Virus record (IMG/VR): IMGVR_UViG_3300034954_001540
Span: 1-64,000 of that record
DNA length: 64,000 nucleotides
Source of the DNA: a virus
Reading direction: 5' to 3' (one strand)
Position numbers and translations under genes: made by a program. Shown piece by piece: positions 411 through 57,567 of the stretch. Below the pieces are notes generated by a model that was not told the origin of the DNA, searched no databases, and saw only the letters and a list, made by a program, of their open reading frames with translations. Each line of letters begins with the position of its first letter. The stretch's first letter is position 1.

Positions 411-3400
411 ATGCCTGCTTATCTCCAAGAGTCTGCTCGGAGTTTTCCTAATCCCATTTCGGGAGAAGAGTATAATACAATCTGGAAAAGACCATCTAGT
501 GGAGACTATGAAAGTCACTCCTCTGGTAACGGACTTGGCACGGGCACAGACTATTTCATTACCTTTGAGGGTAGCGGACCTGGCTCCTATCCTCTGGGGA
601 AAGATGCTGTACACTATATCGGTGATCAAGAAGAGACCTGCATAGCAAACTGCGGATATACCCGTGCGCCAGTATACAGATGGTATCGCGGAGCAAAGCG
701 CGATCACAAGTATACAAAGAAACCTGAGATGATCGAGGCAGATGCAGGTTGTGAGAATGAATCGTGGAAGAAGATATCAAGTGGATACAATCATGAGCCT
801 AGGAAAGGCACTCCATACTTCTTCTGTCTAGATCGTCAGCAAGAAGGTGCTGTGCCACTTGTTATGTGGTATTCGTATTGGCCTGACAACTGTGTGTTAG
901 TTGCTGGCACTGGTAACCCACCTGGCGTTAATACAGGTTGCGGGAAAGGAAAGTATTATAAGTGTTACACCCTTGGATATATCTTCACCAATCTATCTGA
1001 TGCACAGGAGTATGGTGATGATGCTGTGCCTCTGTATCACTACCGCTATGGTAGTCAGAGTGCTAGTAAGGGTAAAGATATTGATGACTTCTATACAATC
1101 AACCCTGCTGGTGAGGTCAATCTAGAGGATAACCCTATTCCTTGTAGGAAACCCATGGATAGGGAATACCAGTATCAGGGTATCATTGGGTATGTCTACC
1201 CTGCAGACGCCCCCTCAGCGCCTCAGCAGCAGGTTATAGACGTTGGTAGGATTGGTCCTACTGGTCAGTGTGTAGATAAGACTGGTTGGTATGAGTTTGA
1301 TGACGAGACTGGACCATTTAACTGGAGAGTATACAACCGAGGAGGGTATCCTGGTGGTTATCCTAACGGTCCTGCAGGTGCAACGCCTGGTGTTATCGGT
1401 TTTGGTAACCCAGACAACGCTGAAATCATAAGTGCAGAGGCAAACTTTGAGTGGGCATACGGTCTTAACGGTGCAATCAAGGGAGCAGTGCCTCGTTTCT
1501 TAGGATTTGAGGATTCTTATGACTCACAATTCTATTATTATCTCTACGATACGACATATCCTTGGAATGGACCGCTGTTTGGCATTCAGTATGAGCTGAA
1601 TGACATCCCCTGCTGCCCTAATACTACTTGTAATGACGAGACTAGCGAGAGACCTAGACCCTGTTGTATCCCCAACGAGCATTTCTACTCCCATTTCTAT
1701 CAAATTAGACAAGACTCATGGGAGACTACTAAGACTAGATGTGTTTTGACTGATACATCTACCAATGGAGTTAACGAATCCTTTGAAACTATTGACACAG
1801 ACAGTCCTAGAGTCCTGTTTAGATACACAACACGGACTGGTGACTTCAATAGAGGTGAGGAAATCAACGGTTGGAATATCGTTTCTGTCTTTTATTACGG
1901 TGATCAACTCAAATGCGGGTTGATGGAGCTAGAAGGCGGCAGTAATGCCTTCACTTATCTCCAACAATTCACCTCTACGGACGGTGGCACGGTAGAAATT
2001 CTTGCTGGATACGGCATTGCTAACAAATGTGCGTTTGCTGGTGTGTATGAATTCCCTAAAAGAGTGTCATATTACAAGGTTGAGCTCTCTCCGAAGGCAC
2101 TTGTGCCCAATCGTACTCTAGATGAGGCGAAACTTGAGGCAATTATCAACAACAAAGGCGGGATTTCCGAGGTTGAGATCGTCAATAGCGGACGTGGTTA
2201 CTCTAAAAACGCAAAAGTTACCGCAATTACACCAAAAGTCCTCAACAATTTCTCTCCTACAGACACTACAGAGCACTTAGATGACCTAATCCGCAAAGAT
2301 TACAACGCTGAAGAGGCGATTGGATTCACAGAATCGGAGTTTTCGGGTGATGACCCCATCAAAGATGTGCAAGTTGCGTATGGAACCTTCAGTGGTGCGA
2401 CAGAATTCCCCACTGATCACGATGGAATCGCATCTAAGCTCAAAGCTGCGACACTAGAGATCGCCGCATTCGACGAAATTGGCGGTATTAAGAAGATTAG
2501 AGTGATTGATGGCGGTAGTGGATACTCTCAGGAAGAGCCACCCGACGTGTTTATTAGCGATCCTGAGTATATTGAGTATGAAAGTCCCGACATTGGCGAC
2601 ATTGCTGCGCTTGGACAGGGTATTTCTGACCAGTTTGAGTTTATGAATGACGGTATTCCCGTGGGTGAGGACCAAGATCCTAACTCTTGGATCAATACTA
2701 ACACTGGAAATGACTTTGGTGGCGCACCTACACAGTTTCAGAGTCTAGGTACTACTGGTATTGGCTCTGCAACCTCTCCTAATCAGGTTGCAAACACGGG
2801 TTTCACCATTATGAATACACCTATTGCCTCCGCAGCACCTGATTCCTACATTAGAATGGCGGAGATTGATGAAGAGAATGAGACAAAACTGTGTTTTGAC
2901 CTACCACCTAACTGTTTAGAGGTAGATGGTCGCGGTAATGTGCTCGATGCTATACCAAAAGAGGACTTCTGGGAGTTGGTTAGCGGTGTAAGTCCTGGTG
3001 TACGTGAGTTTGAGTCGCAAGTTATGCCTCAAGTATACCAAGGAGCGAAGGCACTAGACGAATATCAAGAGCAAACGTCGCATGTTTACGGTCCTTTCAA
3101 CAAAGATCGCTGTTTGACCATGGGTCAACCCAAGATTTACAACATCAGACGTTGGTTTGACATGCCATGTGCCTATGTGAGCACCATAGAAAGGGGATCA
3201 CAGACTCTTGACATGATTGAAAAGGGTAGAAACCTCTCTGATGAGCGTGCTTTCGGTTATTTGCCTTACAAATACTGCGCTTCTAAGATCAAAGAGGCAG
3301 AATTTAACGTCAGTATCATGGTTGAAGGTAAAGTTATTGGATCTATGGGTGAAGATTTCATGGATTACATGGATTCTTTCACAAAACCCAAGGTTACACC

Positions 3401-4295
3401 GCGCAGAAAGGTGTCTGGTGGTTACAAAACGTGGAATTGCAACAACGGAGACGTTGATGGACGCTGTTATCGCGATCCTGGCGACCCAAATGACATTATT
3501 TTCGTCCCAGTGGGTCTAGATGAGAATACTTTTGACTATAACCGTAATGGTTTTAGTGAATATGAGCAATTTAGACTTTGGTTGGGTGATAATTTGACTG
3601 GTGGTGGTCTAACTTCTGCTCAAACGACGTTTAGTTGGGTTGATGATGAGACAACTACGACTACAGATGAGAATGGAAATACATCTTCTTCCACTCAGAG
3701 TTACGGTGGCACTAATAGCACAGCGTATACTGCATTCACTGTGGACTGTAGTCCTGATCCTGGCAGCACCAACGTGCCTAACCATGATTGTTGGGATAAG
3801 TATGTGCGTGCCTCAGGAGCGCCCTCAGATGCCCCTCTAGACGTTTATTGTGGTTGGGATGCATCTGGTAACCCAATGTCAGGAGAGCGTTTCTGGGAGA
3901 TCAGAGGACCCGCTAACGGCACGAATCCTAGTGGACACACAACACCTACTGGACCAGTGAATCCCTTCTGTGCTTCTTGTGGAGGATCTGGATATACTGG
4001 TGGTCTGGTTTGGAGTTATCTTGGCGGTGGCGGTGGACCTCCTGCTTGTGGTCTAAGTAGTGTTAATGATGCATCCATCGCTATTGACCCAACGAGGATA
4101 TATCAGAATTCTGATGGAGACAAAGCATTTAAGATGGGATCTTACAGTGGCACAATGCGTGTAAGGAATTGGTTGACTGGTGGTGTCCAAGCACTTAGCA
4201 ACTCTCTTAAAAACTTTGGTAACCCATATTTCTCTGAATGTGATGTTGCTCGCCCAGACGAGGCAGGTAAACGAATTAACCAAGAGTTTGAATAA
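411..4295 (+). CDS. Large virion structural protein with DUF5648-like and GSGY segments
   Basis: This 1,294-residue protein is rich in Gly, Tyr, Asp and Cys. Residues about 85-270 resemble the DUF5648 repeat: 'PVYRWYRGAKRDHKYT' and 'VPLYHYRYG ... DDFYT' followed by 'YQYQGIIGYVYP'. Residues about 585-720 carry two Gly-Tyr repeats (NSGRGYSKN, DGGSGYSQ) of the kind that fill the giant protein at 8421. A conserved-looking Cys-containing region lies at residues 890-1060, and a Thr/Ser linker at about 1080-1105. There is no signal peptide. Size, repeats and position beside baseplate genes suggest a baseplate- or fibre-associated virion protein, possibly host-binding. The stop overlaps the next start (TAATG). 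Family assignment of the whole protein is not possible by eye. Confidence 0.8.
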   Translation: MPAYLQESARSFPNPISGEEYNTIWKRPSSGDYESHSSGNGLGTGTDYFITFEGSGPGSYPLGKDAVHYIGDQEETCIANCGYTRAPVYRWYRGAKRDHKYTKKPEMIEADAGCENESWKKISSGYNHEPRKGTPYFFCLDRQQEGAVPLVMWYSYWPDNCVLVAGTGNPPGVNTGCGKGKYYKCYTLGYIFTNLSDAQEYGDDAVPLYHYRYGSQSASKGKDIDDFYTINPAGEVNLEDNPIPCRKPMDREYQYQGIIGYVYPADAPSAPQQQVIDVGRIGPTGQCVDKTGWYEFDDETGPFNWRVYNRGGYPGGYPNGPAGATPGVIGFGNPDNAEIISAEANFEWAYGLNGAIKGAVPRFLGFEDSYDSQFYYYLYDTTYPWNGPLFGIQYELNDIPCCPNTTCNDETSERPRPCCIPNEHFYSHFYQIRQDSWETTKTRCVLTDTSTNGVNESFETIDTDSPRVLFRYTTRTGDFNRGEEINGWNIVSVFYYGDQLKCGLMELEGGSNAFTYLQQFTSTDGGTVEILAGYGIANKCAFAGVYEFPKRVSYYKVELSPKALVPNRTLDEAKLEAIINNKGGISEVEIVNSGRGYSKNAKVTAITPKVLNNFSPTDTTEHLDDLIRKDYNAEEAIGFTESEFSGDDPIKDVQVAYGTFSGATEFPTDHDGIASKLKAATLEIAAFDEIGGIKKIRVIDGGSGYSQEEPPDVFISDPEYIEYESPDIGDIAALGQGISDQFEFMNDGIPVGEDQDPNSWINTNTGNDFGGAPTQFQSLGTTGIGSATSPNQVANTGFTIMNTPIASAAPDSYIRMAEIDEENETKLCFDLPPNCLEVDGRGNVLDAIPKEDFWELVSGVSPGVREFESQVMPQVYQGAKALDEYQEQTSHVYGPFNKDRCLTMGQPKIYNIRRWFDMPCAYVSTIERGSQTLDMIEKGRNLSDERAFGYLPYKYCASKIKEAEFNVSIMVEGKVIGSMGEDFMDYMDSFTKPKVTPRRKVSGGYKTWNCNNGDVDGRCYRDPGDPNDIIFVPVGLDENTFDYNRNGFSEYEQFRLWLGDNLTGGGLTSAQTTFSWVDDETTTTTDENGNTSSSTQSYGGTNSTAYTAFTVDCSPDPGSTNVPNHDCWDKYVRASGAPSDAPLDVYCGWDASGNPMSGERFWEIRGPANGTNPSGHTTPTGPVNPFCASCGGSGYTGGLVWSYLGGGGGPPACGLSSVNDASIAIDPTRIYQNSDGDKAFKMGSYSGTMRVRNWLTGGVQALSNSLKNFGNPYFSECDVARPDEAGKRINQEFE

Positions 4296-4828
4296 TGGCA
4301 TACGGATTTCTTAAACCAGTTGCATCACTGAATGGTCTGCCTTGCTCAGGTCATGGTCTTTGTTTGCCTTCTACTGTCCACTCAGTGCAAGCGTGTGGCA
4401 CCCCTCCAGTGCCCTACAGCATCGTCATTAAGAATTTTACATGTTGGTGGCCACCCACACCTCTAATTCCACTTTCAGCAATTAACCCAATTAGAGCAAC
4501 AGTGCTGGTGCAGTTTATCCCCATCATGATTGGTGGTGATACGTTTACCCCACACATCGCATTGTGTACAAACATTGTGATTTACATCTGCCCTTGTGGT
4601 AAGAGTATGTGTCCTATCCCCACACCTATTGCTTGTAGCATACTGACATCTGAGGACTTTGGTGGTGCAGGACATACTAGGGTCCTCTTCCCAACTACCC
4701 TGACAGTTTTTGCATTTAAGATCCCTATTGCGAGGATCCTAGACCCACTGGGTGTTGGTTTTCCAGGATTCTCATATCCATGCTCTTCGGTGGTTGCATT
4801 TGGGCACCCAACTGTGTTAGCATCATAG
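4295..4828 (+). CDS. Probable PAAR-like spike-tip protein
   Basis: The protein has 177 residues and is rich in Pro, Ile, Val, Cys and His. Two segments resemble PAAR strands, 'VLVQFIPIMIGGDTFTPH' and 'VFAFKIPIARILDP', and the C terminus 'CSSVVAFGHPTVLAS' resembles the usual 'C-g-x-I-x-x-GSPTV' ending. The N-terminal 'CSGHGLCLPS' supplies further Cys/His. PAAR proteins cap the T4-type central spike (as gp5.4 does on gp5) and bind one metal with His/Cys. Its place between a virion protein and the gp25-gp6 wedge genes fits a baseplate-hub role. It is longer than a minimal PAAR protein (about 95 residues), so this may be a diverged or doubled form. The start codon overlaps the preceding stop. Confidence 0.55.
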   Translation: MAYGFLKPVASLNGLPCSGHGLCLPSTVHSVQACGTPPVPYSIVIKNFTCWWPPTPLIPLSAINPIRATVLVQFIPIMIGGDTFTPHIALCTNIVIYICPCGKSMCPIPTPIACSILTSEDFGGAGHTRVLFPTTLTVFAFKIPIARILDPLGVGFPGFSYPCSSVVAFGHPTVLAS

Positions 4829-5837: not shown

Positions 5838-6251
5838 ATGCCTGCTTACAGATTTAGATCAGACCAATACGTCAGTAGAGGATTTAAGGATTTAGCAATT
5901 TCCTTTAATGCCAATCCCTCTACTGACGATTTTGGTGCTGTTAAGAATGAGAGAGCGATCAATCAATCTGTAAGAAATTTATTATTGACTATATTAGGTG
6001 AAAGACCATTTCAACCCAACATCGGGAGTCGGGTGAAAGGTCTTCTTTTTGAGCCATGGGATCCATTCTCTAAAGATGCGATCAAAACTGAAATCAAAGA
6101 TTGTCTCGGAAGACTTGAGCCACGAATCACTGTCCAAGATGTCCGTATTCGTGACAACAGTGATTTGAATGAAATTCAAGTTGAGCTCGAATATAAGATT
6201 ACGGGTGAGAATACTACCCAAGAAGTAACATTCCTCTTAGAGAAGACCTGA
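5838..6251 (+). CDS. 25: Baseplate wedge subunit gp25
   Basis: The 137-residue product matches the GPW/gp25 family. 'NERAINQSVRNLLLTILGERPFQP' and 'GSRVKGLLFEPWDP' correspond to the family's characteristic motif, in which a few residues after R-N-x-I-L comes G-E-R-x-x-x-P-x-x-G. In T4 this protein joins the inner wedge with gp6 and gp53 and helps start sheath assembly. Length is close to T4 gp25 (132). The gene directly follows a small gene (TAA then ATG) and is followed at once by gp6, as in other T4-like cyanophages. Confidence 0.95.
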   Translation: MPAYRFRSDQYVSRGFKDLAISFNANPSTDDFGAVKNERAINQSVRNLLLTILGERPFQPNIGSRVKGLLFEPWDPFSKDAIKTEIKDCLGRLEPRITVQDVRIRDNSDLNEIQVELEYKITGENTTQEVTFLLEKT

Positions 6252-6252
6252 A

Positions 6253-8415
6253 ATGGCAGCTATCCCATCACAATTAACATCTCTAGACTTCTTTGAGATT
6301 AAGGAGTCTATTAAGTCCTACCTTCGTACTCGTAAAGAGTTTACTGACTACGACTTTGAGGGTAGTGCTGCGTCGTATCTGATCGATATCCTCGCTTATA
6401 ACACATATTATACCGCATTCAACGCAAACATGGCGCTGAATGAGGCATTTCTTGAGACTGCTACGGTTAGAGATAACGTTGTCCGCATTGCAAAGCAGTT
6501 AAATTACACTCCTAGGTCAATTAAAGCGCCAAGAGCGTGTGTAACTATCCGCGTCCAGACACAAGTGTCGCTGAATGGCACTACATATCCTGAATTCTGC
6601 ACTCTAAAAGCGGGAGATGTGTTTGTTGCCCGCAACTTTAATGATACATACACCTTCTGTGTGACTCGTGACCTCCAAACTACCGTAGATCCCGCAACTG
6701 GTATCGCGGTGTTTGACCCTGTGCTCGTTTATCAGGGTAACCTGCTCAAGTATAACTACACAGTTGACTATACGAAGAAGCAAGACTACGTTATCCCCAC
6801 TGAAGATGTAGATACTCAGTTGGTTTACGTCGATATCTCTCCCAACGCACAGTCAACAGAGATTGACACATATAATCTTGCTGCAAACGTAACTACACTC
6901 AACAGCACCTCTCGTGTTTACTTCCTTGAGGAGACTGATGACCTCAGATACCGCCTAGTCTTTGGTGATGGCGTCCTTGGACGTAAATTGATCGATGGTG
7001 AATACATTAGATTGTCGTATGTGACCACTTTTGGTGAAGAAGCAAACGGTTGTAAGGATTTTGCCTTCATTGGCACCATCAGAGACAGTGATGGTCGCGC
7101 AATCGCTCCCGCAAACATCGCAGTTGTTACTAGAGAGTCTGCTGCAGACGGTGAGCAGCGCGAAAGTGCGCTATCAGTCAAGTTTAGAGCGCCAAGATCC
7201 TTCTCTACCCAAAACAGAGCGGTAACGGAAACAGATTATGAGCATATCGTCTCAGAGATCTATCCTCAGGCGGCATCTGTGACCGCATACGGTGGTGAAA
7301 AACTATCTCCACCCATTTACGGTAAAGTTTACGTTGCCATTCGTCCCAAAACAGGAAACAAACTGAATGAGACGACAAAAGCAAAGATTAAAAATGATTT
7401 GAAGCGTTATACGGTTGCATCAATCGATCCTGTGATCATTGATCCTACTATTTTCTACGTTATCCCCAAATCTTACGTTTACTACGACGGAAACAACACT
7501 AATAAGAGTGGTGCTCAACTCGGAAGTGACGTTTTGCGTAATATTGACCAATTTAACAAGAATGGTCAGAATAATCGCTTTGGTGGTCGTATCGATACGT
7601 CGAAATACAACACGATGGTCGATAATAGTGATCCTGCGATCTCTGGCACCGTTACTCAAATGACTATTGGTCAAAATCTTGACCAATTTGAGTTTGGTAG
7701 CGTATTTACTCAATGTCTTGACTTTGGAAACCCACTTTACAATCCTGGCGACTATTCTGGCACCCCAGAAGGTGGAAATACCTGTAGCACTGACTCAGAT
7801 TGCCCAGAAGGTCAAATTTGTAAGGATGGTAAGTGTGTAGACGAGGGAGATAGCGGCACTTGTGCTCCTTCCTTCTCTGTAGTCAAATCTGGCACCTTCT
7901 ATGCAACAGGATACAGCGAAGATCTTGTTAATTTGACTATGGCAGGTAGTGGCACAAATGCTACCACTGCTGTTTCGTCTTCTAACTCCATTACTGGTGA
8001 AAATCAAGTTTTGGTGCCTGTAAACATTAGAGATGACGGTAAAGGCAATCTTATTCTTGTCACCAAAAGAGATGAGGTTGAAGTAACGTTAAATAACTCA
8101 GTTGGTAGCGTTGATTACGGTAGCGGACAAGTTTGTGTTGGTCCTATTGCAATCCAAGGCACTCCTGACGATACTACCCGTCTTCCTATTCAAGTATTGC
8201 CTTATGGTGGATCTATTAACATTCCACCTGGCGTTGATCCCACATTGTTTGATGTTGAGGCTTTCCCAATCGATTGGAAAACCAACGACATCTCAATCCC
8301 CAACTTCGATCCCAACAACTTCAATGGTTATAACTTCGGTGATCCAAGCGGAATAAATATCATTGATTATCCTTCGGATACCTTCACATATCCAGTAGAT
8401 TCCTCCTGTTTCTGA
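6253..8415 (+). CDS. 6: Baseplate wedge subunit gp6, with a Cys-rich insertion
   Basis: The N terminus 'TSLDFFEIKESIKSYLR', followed by 'YLIDILAYNTYYTAFNANMALNEAFLETA' in shorter pieces, and 'LVFGDGVLGRKL' match the gp6/baseplate J-like family. gp6 dimers form the ring that holds the T4 baseplate wedges together. The protein has 720 residues against about 660 in T4. The extra length is mainly a C-terminal region from about residue 500. It opens with a compact Cys module at residues 511-538 (CSTDSDCPEGQICKDGKC), continues with beta-like sequence and ends 'YPVDSSC-F'. The start lies one base after the gp25 stop. Confidence 0.92.
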   Translation: MAAIPSQLTSLDFFEIKESIKSYLRTRKEFTDYDFEGSAASYLIDILAYNTYYTAFNANMALNEAFLETATVRDNVVRIAKQLNYTPRSIKAPRACVTIRVQTQVSLNGTTYPEFCTLKAGDVFVARNFNDTYTFCVTRDLQTTVDPATGIAVFDPVLVYQGNLLKYNYTVDYTKKQDYVIPTEDVDTQLVYVDISPNAQSTEIDTYNLAANVTTLNSTSRVYFLEETDDLRYRLVFGDGVLGRKLIDGEYIRLSYVTTFGEEANGCKDFAFIGTIRDSDGRAIAPANIAVVTRESAADGEQRESALSVKFRAPRSFSTQNRAVTETDYEHIVSEIYPQAASVTAYGGEKLSPPIYGKVYVAIRPKTGNKLNETTKAKIKNDLKRYTVASIDPVIIDPTIFYVIPKSYVYYDGNNTNKSGAQLGSDVLRNIDQFNKNGQNNRFGGRIDTSKYNTMVDNSDPAISGTVTQMTIGQNLDQFEFGSVFTQCLDFGNPLYNPGDYSGTPEGGNTCSTDSDCPEGQICKDGKCVDEGDSGTCAPSFSVVKSGTFYATGYSEDLVNLTMAGSGTNATTAVSSSNSITGENQVLVPVNIRDDGKGNLILVTKRDEVEVTLNNSVGSVDYGSGQVCVGPIAIQGTPDDTTRLPIQVLPYGGSINIPPGVDPTLFDVEAFPIDWKTNDISIPNFDPNNFNGYNFGDPSGINIIDYPSDTFTYPVDSSCF
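8352..8359 (+). promoter_or_regulatory. Late-promoter-like motif AATAAATA
   Basis: AATAAATA lies near the end of gp6, 61 bases before the ATG of the giant gene at 8421. It matches TATAAATA at seven of eight positions. Spacing is longer than at the best examples in this window. Confidence 0.3.
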
Positions 8416-55272: not shown

Positions 55273-57567
55273 ATGCCAGCAGTCTCAAGAGCCCAACAAA
55301 GATTCTTCGGGATGGTTAGAGCGGCTCAAAAGGGGGATCTCAAATCGCCGTCGCCACAGGTTCAAAGAACTGCTGCCAGCATAAAGAAAAAGGATGCTAA
55401 GGATTTTGCATCCACCAAACATAAAGGTTTACCAGAGAAAAAAATGAAATCTTTTTCCGAAATGCAACACATCCCTGAAGAGGGATATGATCACTGGCGT
55501 GATAAGCAACTTGAGAAGTATGGCTCAGGTTATAGATCTGCAGGTAGTCGCCGCAGTGTTGCAAGGTCTGGTGGGACGCAACCAAAACCCATGCCTAAGA
55601 AGAAAGAGGGTGGTGACTCTGCTCTTGACTATGTGAAGAAGTCCATCGAAGCAAAGTATGGCAAGGGTGCCATCATGGATACTTCTAAGAAAAAGAATGA
55701 AGAGGTTGTAACTGAGAAGAAGAAAGGTCTCTGGGACAACATTCACGCTAAGAGAAAGCGTGGTGAGAAACCTGCTAAGCCTGGTGATAAAGATTATCCT
55801 AAGACTCTCAACGTCGAAGGTTATGATAAACCAGACGAGAAGTTGAAGACTGATCGGGATATGTTTAACATCCCTAAGGAAAAGCAGAATGCTGCAAAGG
55901 AGCGTCTTCTCGCTAAAGCAAAAGCAAAGCGTGCAAAACTGAAAGAAGATGTTTGGGATCAGGTTGACATCTTTGCAGAGATGAATGACTGGGAGATCTC
56001 ACTCCTTAATGATACTATTATCGAAGATATCATTACTGATGTCTTCATCGAAGAATTACAAGAAGGTAGAGATATTGATAGCGTCACAGATATGCTCTGT
56101 GAGTCTGTTGATTACTCTCTTAATCTCTTGACAGAAGTATCAGATAAGTATTATGATAGTGCTGTTGCTTCTTCTAAAGCAGCAAGCAGGACTCCTGAAG
56201 TAAAGGCTGCTAACCGCAGACAAAAACTTGAAAAGGTTAAGAGTGCTGCTAAGAAGGTTGGATCTGCACTGAAGTCTGGTCTTAAGACTGGCGCTAAACT
56301 TGCACGCAAAGGTGCTGTTAAGGGTGCTGAAGTTGCTGGTAAGGCAGCAGGTCACGCGAAAAATCTCGCGAAAGACATGGGTAGTGCCGCTAAGAAAGGT
56401 TACCAGTCCACTCAAAAGGACTCATCTTCTAGCGACTCTGATTCCTCCTCTTCTTCTTCCTCATCTTCATCCTCCTCTTCTTCTAGCGAGTCCAAGCCTA
56501 AGAAGCCTGGTCTGCTCAGCAGAATTGGTAGCAAACTGAAGCGTGGTATCAAGAAGGCAGTTGGTGCTGGTGCAAGAGCTCTCTCCCGTGGCGCACGCAA
56601 TGTTGCACGCCGTCTGGGTGAAGAGACTCTCCTAGAGAAAGGAATGTCCGAGAAGGATATGGATTCTGCTCTTAAGGGTCACAAGTACAGTAAGAAGCAA
56701 CTCATGGACATGAGTAAGAAGTCTACTAAAGAAGGTAGACACGGTGAAGCACAGTCCATGTATAAGGCTGCCCGTGCCATGAAGGAAGACACCATCAATG
56801 AGCGTGGTGATTTCTGGCATCCTGATCCTGAGAAGGATCGTAAACTGGGTGGTCCTGGCGCTAACCAGCGTGCTCGTGAAGATCGTGCTGCTGCATCTAA
56901 ACCTGCTGCTAAGAAGGAAGATCCTAAGAAACTGCGTAAGGGTGAGTCCTACATGGACTATGCCAAGCGTCAGCCAGGTTACAAAGCACCCGCTAAGAAA
57001 GAAGGTTTGCGTGACAAGATCAAGCGTAAGCTTGGTTTGAAGAGAGAGGAAGTCGAAGTCCTTTCTTTCAATGCATATCTCTCAGAGGGTAACCGCACTG
57101 GTCGTATGATGCAGAAGTCCAAGACTCAGGTCACTGGACACATCTCTGCTGACAGGGGGTCCGACGAAAAAAAGAATCGTGAGGGTCGTAAGTCTCTAGA
57201 GAAGGATCTCAAGAAGCATGGCATCGGTCACAAGAAAGGTGTCGGTGAGTATAAGTATGACAGTGGAGAAACTGGCCGAGAAGTTTCCTATCAGACTTCA
57301 AAACCTGATAAGATGTCAAAACGCCGTTTCGGAAAGGTCATGCGTCGCATGGGACGCAAGCACGGGCAAGAATCCGTGATCACTAAAGACAAAGACAAAC
57401 CTGCAAAATTGCATTATACTGAGAAAGGTAGTAAAGCAAAATCCGATAGTATCGGAAAGACTAAGGCAGGTAAGCATCCCGAAGGTTATGGTGAAACTTC
57501 TGGCACCAAAGTCAGAGGTGGTAAGCTTCCCAAGAAAACTAACAAATCATCTTATCATTATGGCTGA
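55273..57567 (+). CDS. Long basic DUF3008 protein with serine tract (764 aa)
   Basis: Residues 1-57 ('MPAVSRAQQRFFGMVRAAQK' to 'STKHKGLPEKK') match DUF3008, usually a stand-alone protein of about 60 residues in phages and bacteria. The rest is Lys/Ala-rich and largely disordered. An acidic helical part lies at about 230-295. An 'AKKVGSALKSGLKTGAKLAR' histone-like segment follows, then a serine tract (about residues 381-412) broken by Asp and Glu, and repeated Lys-rich linkers. The last 145 residues form a separate globular-looking domain ('GEYKYDSGETGREVSYQTSK', 'GKVMRRMGRKHGQESVITKD'). The basic composition suggests an internal head or DNA-associated protein. The fusion is unusual. Confidence 0.8.
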   Translation: MPAVSRAQQRFFGMVRAAQKGDLKSPSPQVQRTAASIKKKDAKDFASTKHKGLPEKKMKSFSEMQHIPEEGYDHWRDKQLEKYGSGYRSAGSRRSVARSGGTQPKPMPKKKEGGDSALDYVKKSIEAKYGKGAIMDTSKKKNEEVVTEKKKGLWDNIHAKRKRGEKPAKPGDKDYPKTLNVEGYDKPDEKLKTDRDMFNIPKEKQNAAKERLLAKAKAKRAKLKEDVWDQVDIFAEMNDWEISLLNDTIIEDIITDVFIEELQEGRDIDSVTDMLCESVDYSLNLLTEVSDKYYDSAVASSKAASRTPEVKAANRRQKLEKVKSAAKKVGSALKSGLKTGAKLARKGAVKGAEVAGKAAGHAKNLAKDMGSAAKKGYQSTQKDSSSSDSDSSSSSSSSSSSSSSSESKPKKPGLLSRIGSKLKRGIKKAVGAGARALSRGARNVARRLGEETLLEKGMSEKDMDSALKGHKYSKKQLMDMSKKSTKEGRHGEAQSMYKAARAMKEDTINERGDFWHPDPEKDRKLGGPGANQRAREDRAAASKPAAKKEDPKKLRKGESYMDYAKRQPGYKAPAKKEGLRDKIKRKLGLKREEVEVLSFNAYLSEGNRTGRMMQKSKTQVTGHISADRGSDEKKNREGRKSLEKDLKKHGIGHKKGVGEYKYDSGETGREVSYQTSKPDKMSKRRFGKVMRRMGRKHGQESVITKDKDKPAKLHYTEKGSKAKSDSIGKTKAGKHPEGYGETSGTKVRGGKLPKKTNKSSYHYG

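Follow-up and report, generated by a model that had tools for sequence, protein, structure and literature searches.

A four-cysteine module in the linker of a cyanophage gp6

The IMG/VR virus record IMGVR_UViG_3300034954_001540 is 80,864 bases long, and its first 64,000 bases (the whole stretch analyzed here, called the window) encode a gp6-type baseplate wedge protein with a small four-cysteine module in its C-terminal region. The gene and the features of this region are:

6253-8415, + strand: gp6-type baseplate wedge protein, host of the module (720 amino acids; matches to phrog_219, Pfam Gp6-like_1st, and T4 gp6 5hx2)
7714-7716, + strand: invariant gp6 cysteine C488, upstream of the linker
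7735-7860, + strand: variable linker holding the module (residues 495-536); Gly/Asp-rich and Cys-free in relatives without the module
7783-7836, + strand: four-cysteine module CSTDSDCPEGQICKDGKC (gp6 residues 511-528; predicted pairs C511-C523 and C517-C528)
7861-7863, + strand: invariant gp6 cysteine C537, at the downstream border of the linker and not part of the module
8134-8136, + strand: invariant gp6 cysteine C628
8407-8409, + strand: invariant gp6 cysteine C719, the penultimate residue

The open reading frame (ORF) at 6253-8415 translates without interruption into 720 amino acids, of which residues 4-657 match phrog_219 (E 2e-199). The protein scored 66.2 bits against Pfam Gp6-like_1st, above the cut-off of 27, while Gp6_C-I (26.3 bits) and Gp6_C-III (21.0 bits) stayed under their cut-off of 27. 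In the match to T4 gp6 (5hx2; E 1.7e-42), profile positions 3-479 align with T4 residues 16-491; the part beyond approximately residue 480, which contains the module with its linker as well as the four invariant cysteines, did not align with T4 gp6. Since genes for transaldolase, 6-phosphogluconate dehydrogenase, and glucose-6-phosphate dehydrogenase follow gp6, and since the nearest isolate gp6 proteins (56-61% identity) come from Synechococcus and Prochlorococcus phages of the Kyanoviridae, the sequence identifies the source as a T4-like cyanophage. The linker that holds the module is part of a cyanophage-specific C-terminal region of gp6.

The module has the spacing C-x5-C-x5-C-x4-C (C5C5C4C), and the codons of C511, C517, C523, C528, and C537 were checked in the DNA. 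A codon pattern for C..D.DC..G..C had a single match in the window of 64 kb and none in 100 dinucleotide shuffles. In the 80,864-base record, no second C5C5C4C string and no looser four-cysteine string turned up among the longest non-overlapping ORFs.

A cysteine-rich mini-domain in gp6 had been proposed from the sequence of this locus, and the quoted peptide indeed translates, at residues 511-528 of the uninterrupted ORF. The proposed extent, 7783-7866 (residues 511-538), was correct for the four-cysteine part at 7783-7836; the remainder had to be dropped, as it counted C537 into the module. All 49 aligned gp6 proteins, 33 without the module among them, keep C488, C537, C628, and C719 (our gp6 alignments had 49 and 41 rows, out of 72 distinct proteins). 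Because C537 is thus a residue of gp6 itself that is also present in module-less relatives, we rejected a five-cysteine module. A frameshift, named in the original prediction as what would undo it, and an assembly artifact were likewise rejected, since 36 module-bearing gp6 ORFs among the matches listed lie on separate virus contigs with the module in frame, and since gp6 stays in frame past the module through conserved downstream residues.

The four invariant cysteines (7714-8409) lie in the C-terminal region that does not align with T4, where they may form a metal site or two disulfides of their own.

We compared gp6 with related cyanophages, as had been suggested. Eight relatives (38-61% identity) lack the module and have continuous flanks, and in them the same pair of cysteines encloses a linker that is short or rich in Gly. 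Since relatives without the module keep the flanks and since C488 and C537 are invariant, the module occupies the C488-C537 linker. Module-less linkers in the set used for the gp6 tree (42 rows) are 14-32 residues long and contain no cysteine; past their first eight residues they are 36% Gly and 26% Asp. Module-bearing linkers (27 rows) are 42-97 residues long. One module-less protein, L006, is outside the count of 42, as the linker-cutting rule did not work on it. DxDxDG strings were present in 12 of the 42 module-less linkers and in none of the 27 module-bearing ones.

Conservation of the module within gp6

Among 21 distinct gp6 module DNAs, all four cysteines were kept in every one, with a mixture of TGT and TGC codons. 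D516, P518, G520, and G526 were also constant, and module positions 3, 5, 12, 14, 15, and 17 differed between lineages. In 20 full-length proteins from the 25-row clade that contains the window's gp6, the ratio of nonsynonymous to synonymous polymorphism (pN/pS) was 0.187 for the module, 0.108 for codons 1-420, and 0.147 for the 20 codons from C537. By these measures the module is under purifying selection.

Repeated gain at one site

To follow the module through gp6 evolution, we mapped its presence on a tree of 70 gp6 rows from which the linker had been removed (except in L006); this was a quick tree with some long branches, and L064 and L091 (31-32% identity) were dropped beforehand. At least three state changes occurred at the one linker. 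A single clade of the 27 module-bearing rows was rejected (approximately unbiased test, p-AU 0.00144), and one origin of the module in gp6 would require 14 losses. The module is kept throughout the window's 25-row clade, and the adjoining clade, 72-76% identical, lacks it in all rows but one.

The closest view of a change came from L166, a single metagenomic contig. Its gp6 bears the module inside a module-less group, at 0.022-0.056 substitutions per column from four neighbors; over the first 16 linker codons shown, it is identical in DNA to L200 and L204, and the module stretch follows. A DNA pattern of the L166 type found its own contig only; this pattern was too narrow, with fixed serine codons. 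In another gp6, L073, two modules stand in tandem in the same linker. By residues, the L166 module is nearest to modules of hub and phrog_773 proteins (15 of 18), the L073 modules are nearest to other gp6 modules, and so is the first module of the hub protein L084. Such similarity over 18 residues is too little to prove transfer. On the sequences at hand, we regard the module as portable and gained several times at one gp6 site.

The module in other virion proteins

Pattern scans of viral sequences, whose counts are lower bounds, first gave at least 119 stretches. Among the matches listed, 121 module ORFs in 130 loci included 36 gp6 ORFs with the module at the same site and 36 ORFs in a second cluster. 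When 20 non-gp6 host proteins were compared with PHROGs, five matched phrog_1922 (hub and tail lysozyme) and five phrog_773 (labeled major head protein); two (L070 and L112) matched both families and eight matched none at E 1e-5. By homology, the hub and gp6 families are parts of the virion.

The hub protein L084 carries two modules, while 11 relatives that span the site (71-75% identity) have none; a twelfth, L227, stops short of it. In nine aligned relatives of L084 the site is occupied by a shorter stretch, which in most of them is acidic or Gly/Asp-rich. DxDxDG strings were found in 11 of 20 hub ORFs, a count that includes the duplicates of one contig. Five hub relatives (L216, L218, L220, L222, and L229) have DxDGDG strings, which resemble calcium loops, where L084 has its two modules.

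In phrog_773 proteins the module lies near residues 28 to 46, and L252, L260, and L261 are without it. The label of this family (which includes L021, L010, and L011) looks wrong, since L021 has 1,120 amino acids and a PA14 domain; the records of S-MS29 and P-SSM7 repeat the label.

Cultured phages with the module are S-SCSM2R (hub) and S-MS29 and P-SSM7 (phrog_773), with PSS2 gp084 carrying it in a looser form. PSS2 gp084 (L270, 3274-11112) has approximately 2,612 amino acids, 282 cysteines, and 12 C5C5C4C segments. Like gp6, it is a marine cyanophage virion protein with such segments, but it is a siphovirus protein and not a gp6. It was detected in purified particles: in the virion proteome table, its row ends in 43 and that of the neighboring ORF 085 in 0 (PMC2784084). 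Neither that paper nor a second one on cyanophages uses the word "cysteine" in its main text.

Cellular relatives

A scan of bacterial and archaeal species genomes with a narrower pattern gave 88 stretches, 80 of them listed. By their titles, 43 of these were from Myxococcota/Deltaproteobacteria, seven from Chloroflexi, five from DPANN archaea, and ten were titled "bacterium" only. An insert derived from the host was rejected as an origin, since none of the 80 titles named a cyanobacterium.

By a simple hydrophobicity rule, a hydrophobic segment precedes the module in 57 of 79 cellular ORFs, 19 of which additionally have a lipobox-like string, vs. 10 of 78 viral ORFs. The count skips six cellular ORFs and one viral ORF with an open 5′ end, and gp6 is heavily repeated in the viral set. 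An N-terminal hydrophobic segment was found by this rule in none of 34 gp6, 15 hub, and 12 phrog_773 proteins. Because of the segment that precedes it in 57 of 79 ORFs, the module seems to be mostly a part of exported proteins in cells, while its phage host proteins appear to lack an export signal.

The cellular hydrophobicity counts and the module alignment include one viral row, L313, as a cell. Titled Euryarchaeota archaeon TMED129, it has a module-bearing gp6 of cyanophage type with its neighbors and is a virus contig binned into an archaeal metagenome-assembled genome. Four sequences from Chloroflexi/Dehalococcoidia (L290, L298, L309, and L310) encode peptides of 67-83 amino acids with a hydrophobic N terminus and one C-terminal module.

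Family matches and predicted fold

From 414 distinct four-cysteine modules collected, 88 were aligned. As had been proposed, we searched with the motif alone, and the outcome was mixed: the isolated 30-residue module passed Pfam PF23416, DUF7107 (25.2 bits, cut-off 24.6; 17.3 bits with full-length gp6), while Dickkopf_N (19.7 vs. 25), EB (18.0 vs. 24.3), and DPY remained below cut-off. For DPY, with a cut-off of 27, scores were 13.9 in gp6, 17.7 in a further scan, and 19.5 for the isolated module. Since these scores are below cut-off, we do not assign the module to DPY, Dickkopf_N, or EB. The module covers only positions 1-20 of the 48 in DUF7107, a family for which the Pfam entry gives no function. 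Among the 88 modules, matches at E ≤ 0.01 numbered 85 for DUF7107, 69 for Dickkopf_N, 55 for EB, and 50 for DPY, and two phage proteins contained modules that passed the DPY cut-off (L084, 27.8; L112, 49.3). Dickkopf_N and EB are extracellular disulfide modules.

In profile searches of PDB, the DPY module of Dumpy (PF21164, 1oig) was found at E 0.011, level with toxin peptides. It shares the C5C5C4C spacing and the DSDC/NSDC core with the gp6 module, and in the hub proteins L037 and L062 the tandem copies follow each other at intervals of 21 residues. DPY is described as a 21-residue module between epidermal growth factor (EGF) repeats of an extracellular-matrix protein (PMC2930355). In contrast, the gp6 module is single, without EGF repeats, and in a phage protein assembled in the cytoplasm.

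We also ran the structure prediction that had been called for. AlphaFold2 modeled the isolated module (88 rows) as a compact unit in which a short helical turn is combined with a beta hairpin; the mean predicted local distance difference test score (pLDDT) was 79.9, rising to 89 over the ten central residues of 30. The model of full-length gp6 (41 rows) was poor (mean pLDDT 43.9) and uninformative on C488, C537, C628, and C719, with 72-74 for residues 511-530. Thus, the idea that a T4-type gp6 carries an inserted segment spaced like small extracellular disulfide modules was borne out by the DUF7107 match of the isolated module and by its predicted autonomous hairpin.

The nearest solved folds in Foldseek, none of them significant, were squash inhibitors, the N-terminal region of Dkk4 (TM-score on the query [TMq] 0.71; root mean square deviation [rmsd] 1.2; E 1.2), and Dumpy DPY (21 columns, 48% identity, E 2.2). 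The top rows in Foldseek and VIA were squash inhibitors (EETI-II, MCoTI-II, and a two-disulfide intermediate). Whereas a knottin, or inhibitor cystine knot, needs six cysteines in three knotted disulfides, the gp6 module has four and thus lacks the third disulfide of the squash knottins. Knottins pair cysteines II-V and III-VI. With this pairing and an alignment with two-disulfide relatives, the module cysteines would pair 1-3 and 2-4, as C511-C523 and C517-C528. The predicted module may resemble the cystine-stabilized beta-sheet (CSB) core of these proteins, a two-disulfide autonomous mini-fold. Min-23, a two-disulfide CSB peptide, is reported as a stable folding unit (PMC2659701, PMC6259850).

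A model for the module and its alternatives

The reading that we favor, with a probability of roughly 0.6, is that the module is a portable and autonomous two-disulfide knob on a virion linker, oxidized after lysis, the timing that the original prediction had raised, with a role as spacer or contact. It would be an 18-residue mini-domain, a CSB knob with the look of DUF7107, DPY, EB, and the Dickkopf N-terminal region, seated where the cyanophage-specific region of gp6 has an exposed linker that tolerates insertion. During synthesis and assembly of gp6 in the reducing cytoplasm, the module cysteines would be unpaired and the module tethered by flexible Gly/Asp/Asn stretches; assembly would therefore be undisturbed. 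Once lysis has released the particle into oxygenated sea water, the pairs C511-C523 and C517-C528 would form, and a formerly floppy stretch of the loop would stiffen into a compact knob that resists proteases. On the baseplate, this knob could act as a rigid spacer and a low-affinity contact surface. Repeated insertion in gp6 and in other virion proteins would follow if the module folds by itself and its ends fit any loop.

Several observations weigh against this reading. Compared with the gp6 core, the module changes more quickly at nonsynonymous (pN 0.120 vs. 0.040) and synonymous sites alike, and a single line of evidence, the variability of the linker, suggests that it is exposed at the surface. 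No cultured phage was found with the module in gp6: among these a 56-residue query matched P-TIM40 gp6 only, the linker of which has none of the four module cysteines, and the whole records of the four nearest isolates gave no module match. The evidence from PSS2 gp084 is supporting and not decisive, since only two of its segments fit the stricter pattern, and chance matches to the spacing are expected with 282 cysteines. Of the cellular ORFs, 22 of 79 fail the hydrophobicity rule. As for family and fold, the scan of full-length gp6 returned no module family at cut-off, weak DPY matches below cut-off (E up to 1) also occurred in 8 of 14 control genomes, and the PDB profile searches gave nothing below E 0.01. 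Fold comparison yielded no significant match (best Foldseek E 0.55; VIA, over the families on its list, Z ≤ 3.1), and in the AlphaFold2 model gp6 residues 531-720 have a pLDDT of about 21-31.

Within this framework we think a spacer with a weak contact surface likeliest, and a specific binder next. In the latter case the knob would be kept for its affinity to a ligand, either a molecule of the host cell surface or a partner virion protein, which we consider unlikely. It would fit the positions outside the conserved core, which differ by lineage as in a tuned contact surface, and the tandem copies in hub proteins, which could give avidity; moreover, the CSB scaffold Min-23 takes new binding specificities (PMC6259850). 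However, no ligand is known, and since the adjoining gp6 clade manages without the module in all but one row, the module cannot be essential for adsorption. The location in the particle also speaks against a binder, as T4 gp6 is an inner wedge protein and not a fiber.

The remaining explanations are all much weaker. A cross-linked baseplate, in which module cysteines pair with C488, C537, C628, and C719 or across gp6 subunits, seems quite improbable: although C488 and C537 border the linker on either side in each of the 49 aligned proteins, the invariant cysteines are present without the module, and the module brings an even, self-sufficient set of four that recurs in other protein families. 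Less probable again is the other option of the original prediction, metal binding, here as a structural finger whose four cysteines bind zinc or Fe-S in the cytoplasm. Four invariant cysteines and assembly in a reducing compartment would suit a finger, but the module has neither CxxC nor His, three of the four families most matched by the 88 modules (DUF7107, Dickkopf_N, EB, and DPY), namely the last three, are extracellular disulfide modules, and cellular relatives are mostly export-like (57 of 79). The least probable is a neutral passenger, carried in by recombination and tolerated in a loop with no selected function. Such a passenger would be at home in the least conserved stretch of gp6, missing from many relatives, with repeated state changes and evolution faster than the core; yet purifying selection disfavors it, since pN/pS is 0.187, the cysteines are kept in all 21 module DNAs despite mixed codons, and the module persists across the whole 25-row clade.

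The knob reading can be taken further, though only tentatively and with less than even odds: a mobile disulfide cassette of the secreted type could serve marine tailed phages as an interchangeable staple between loops of gp6, the hub-lysozyme, and phrog_773 proteins, replacing Gly/Asp or DxDxDG linkers, with the oxygen of sea water as a post-lysis hardening switch. If this were so, maturation of the particle would go on outside the cell. Disulfide modules of this look are usually found in exported proteins, and a selected, repeatedly gained one in virion proteins folded in the reducing cytoplasm suggests an ability of tailed phages to postpone some folding beyond lysis. The C5C5C4C loop pattern could then provide a sequence handle for extracellular maturation in ocean viruses. 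In addition, the module may mark insertion-tolerant loops of the T4-type baseplate and hub and offer natural examples of mini-scaffolds displayed on loops. The type of module and gp6 are known already; in the open-access literature, at the level of titles and the beginnings of abstracts, we found no report of the two together or of repeated placement of such a module in phage virion proteins.

Neighboring genes

The gene directly upstream of gp6 encodes another wedge subunit:

5838-6251, + strand: gp25-type baseplate wedge subunit (phrog_261, E 3.7e-50)

The gp25-gp6 order is common to S-SZBM1, P-RSM6, P-TIM40, and S-WAM1. Further upstream, window positions 411-4295 encode a protein of 1,294 amino acids with 31 cysteines (phrog_22792, function unknown), which is directly followed by a PAAR-type protein (4295-4828; phrog_281) with ten cysteines in 177 amino acids; cysteines are thus abundant in this stretch of the tail gene block. 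Downstream, a single ORF of 7,295 amino acids (8421-30308) encodes a giant virion protein, which over its first 3,000 residues has matches to phrog_701 as well as to several families of baseplate wedge proteins. At 55273-57567, the C-terminal part of a 764-residue ORF scored 28.6 bits against the S-adenosylmethionine lyase family (cut-off 28).

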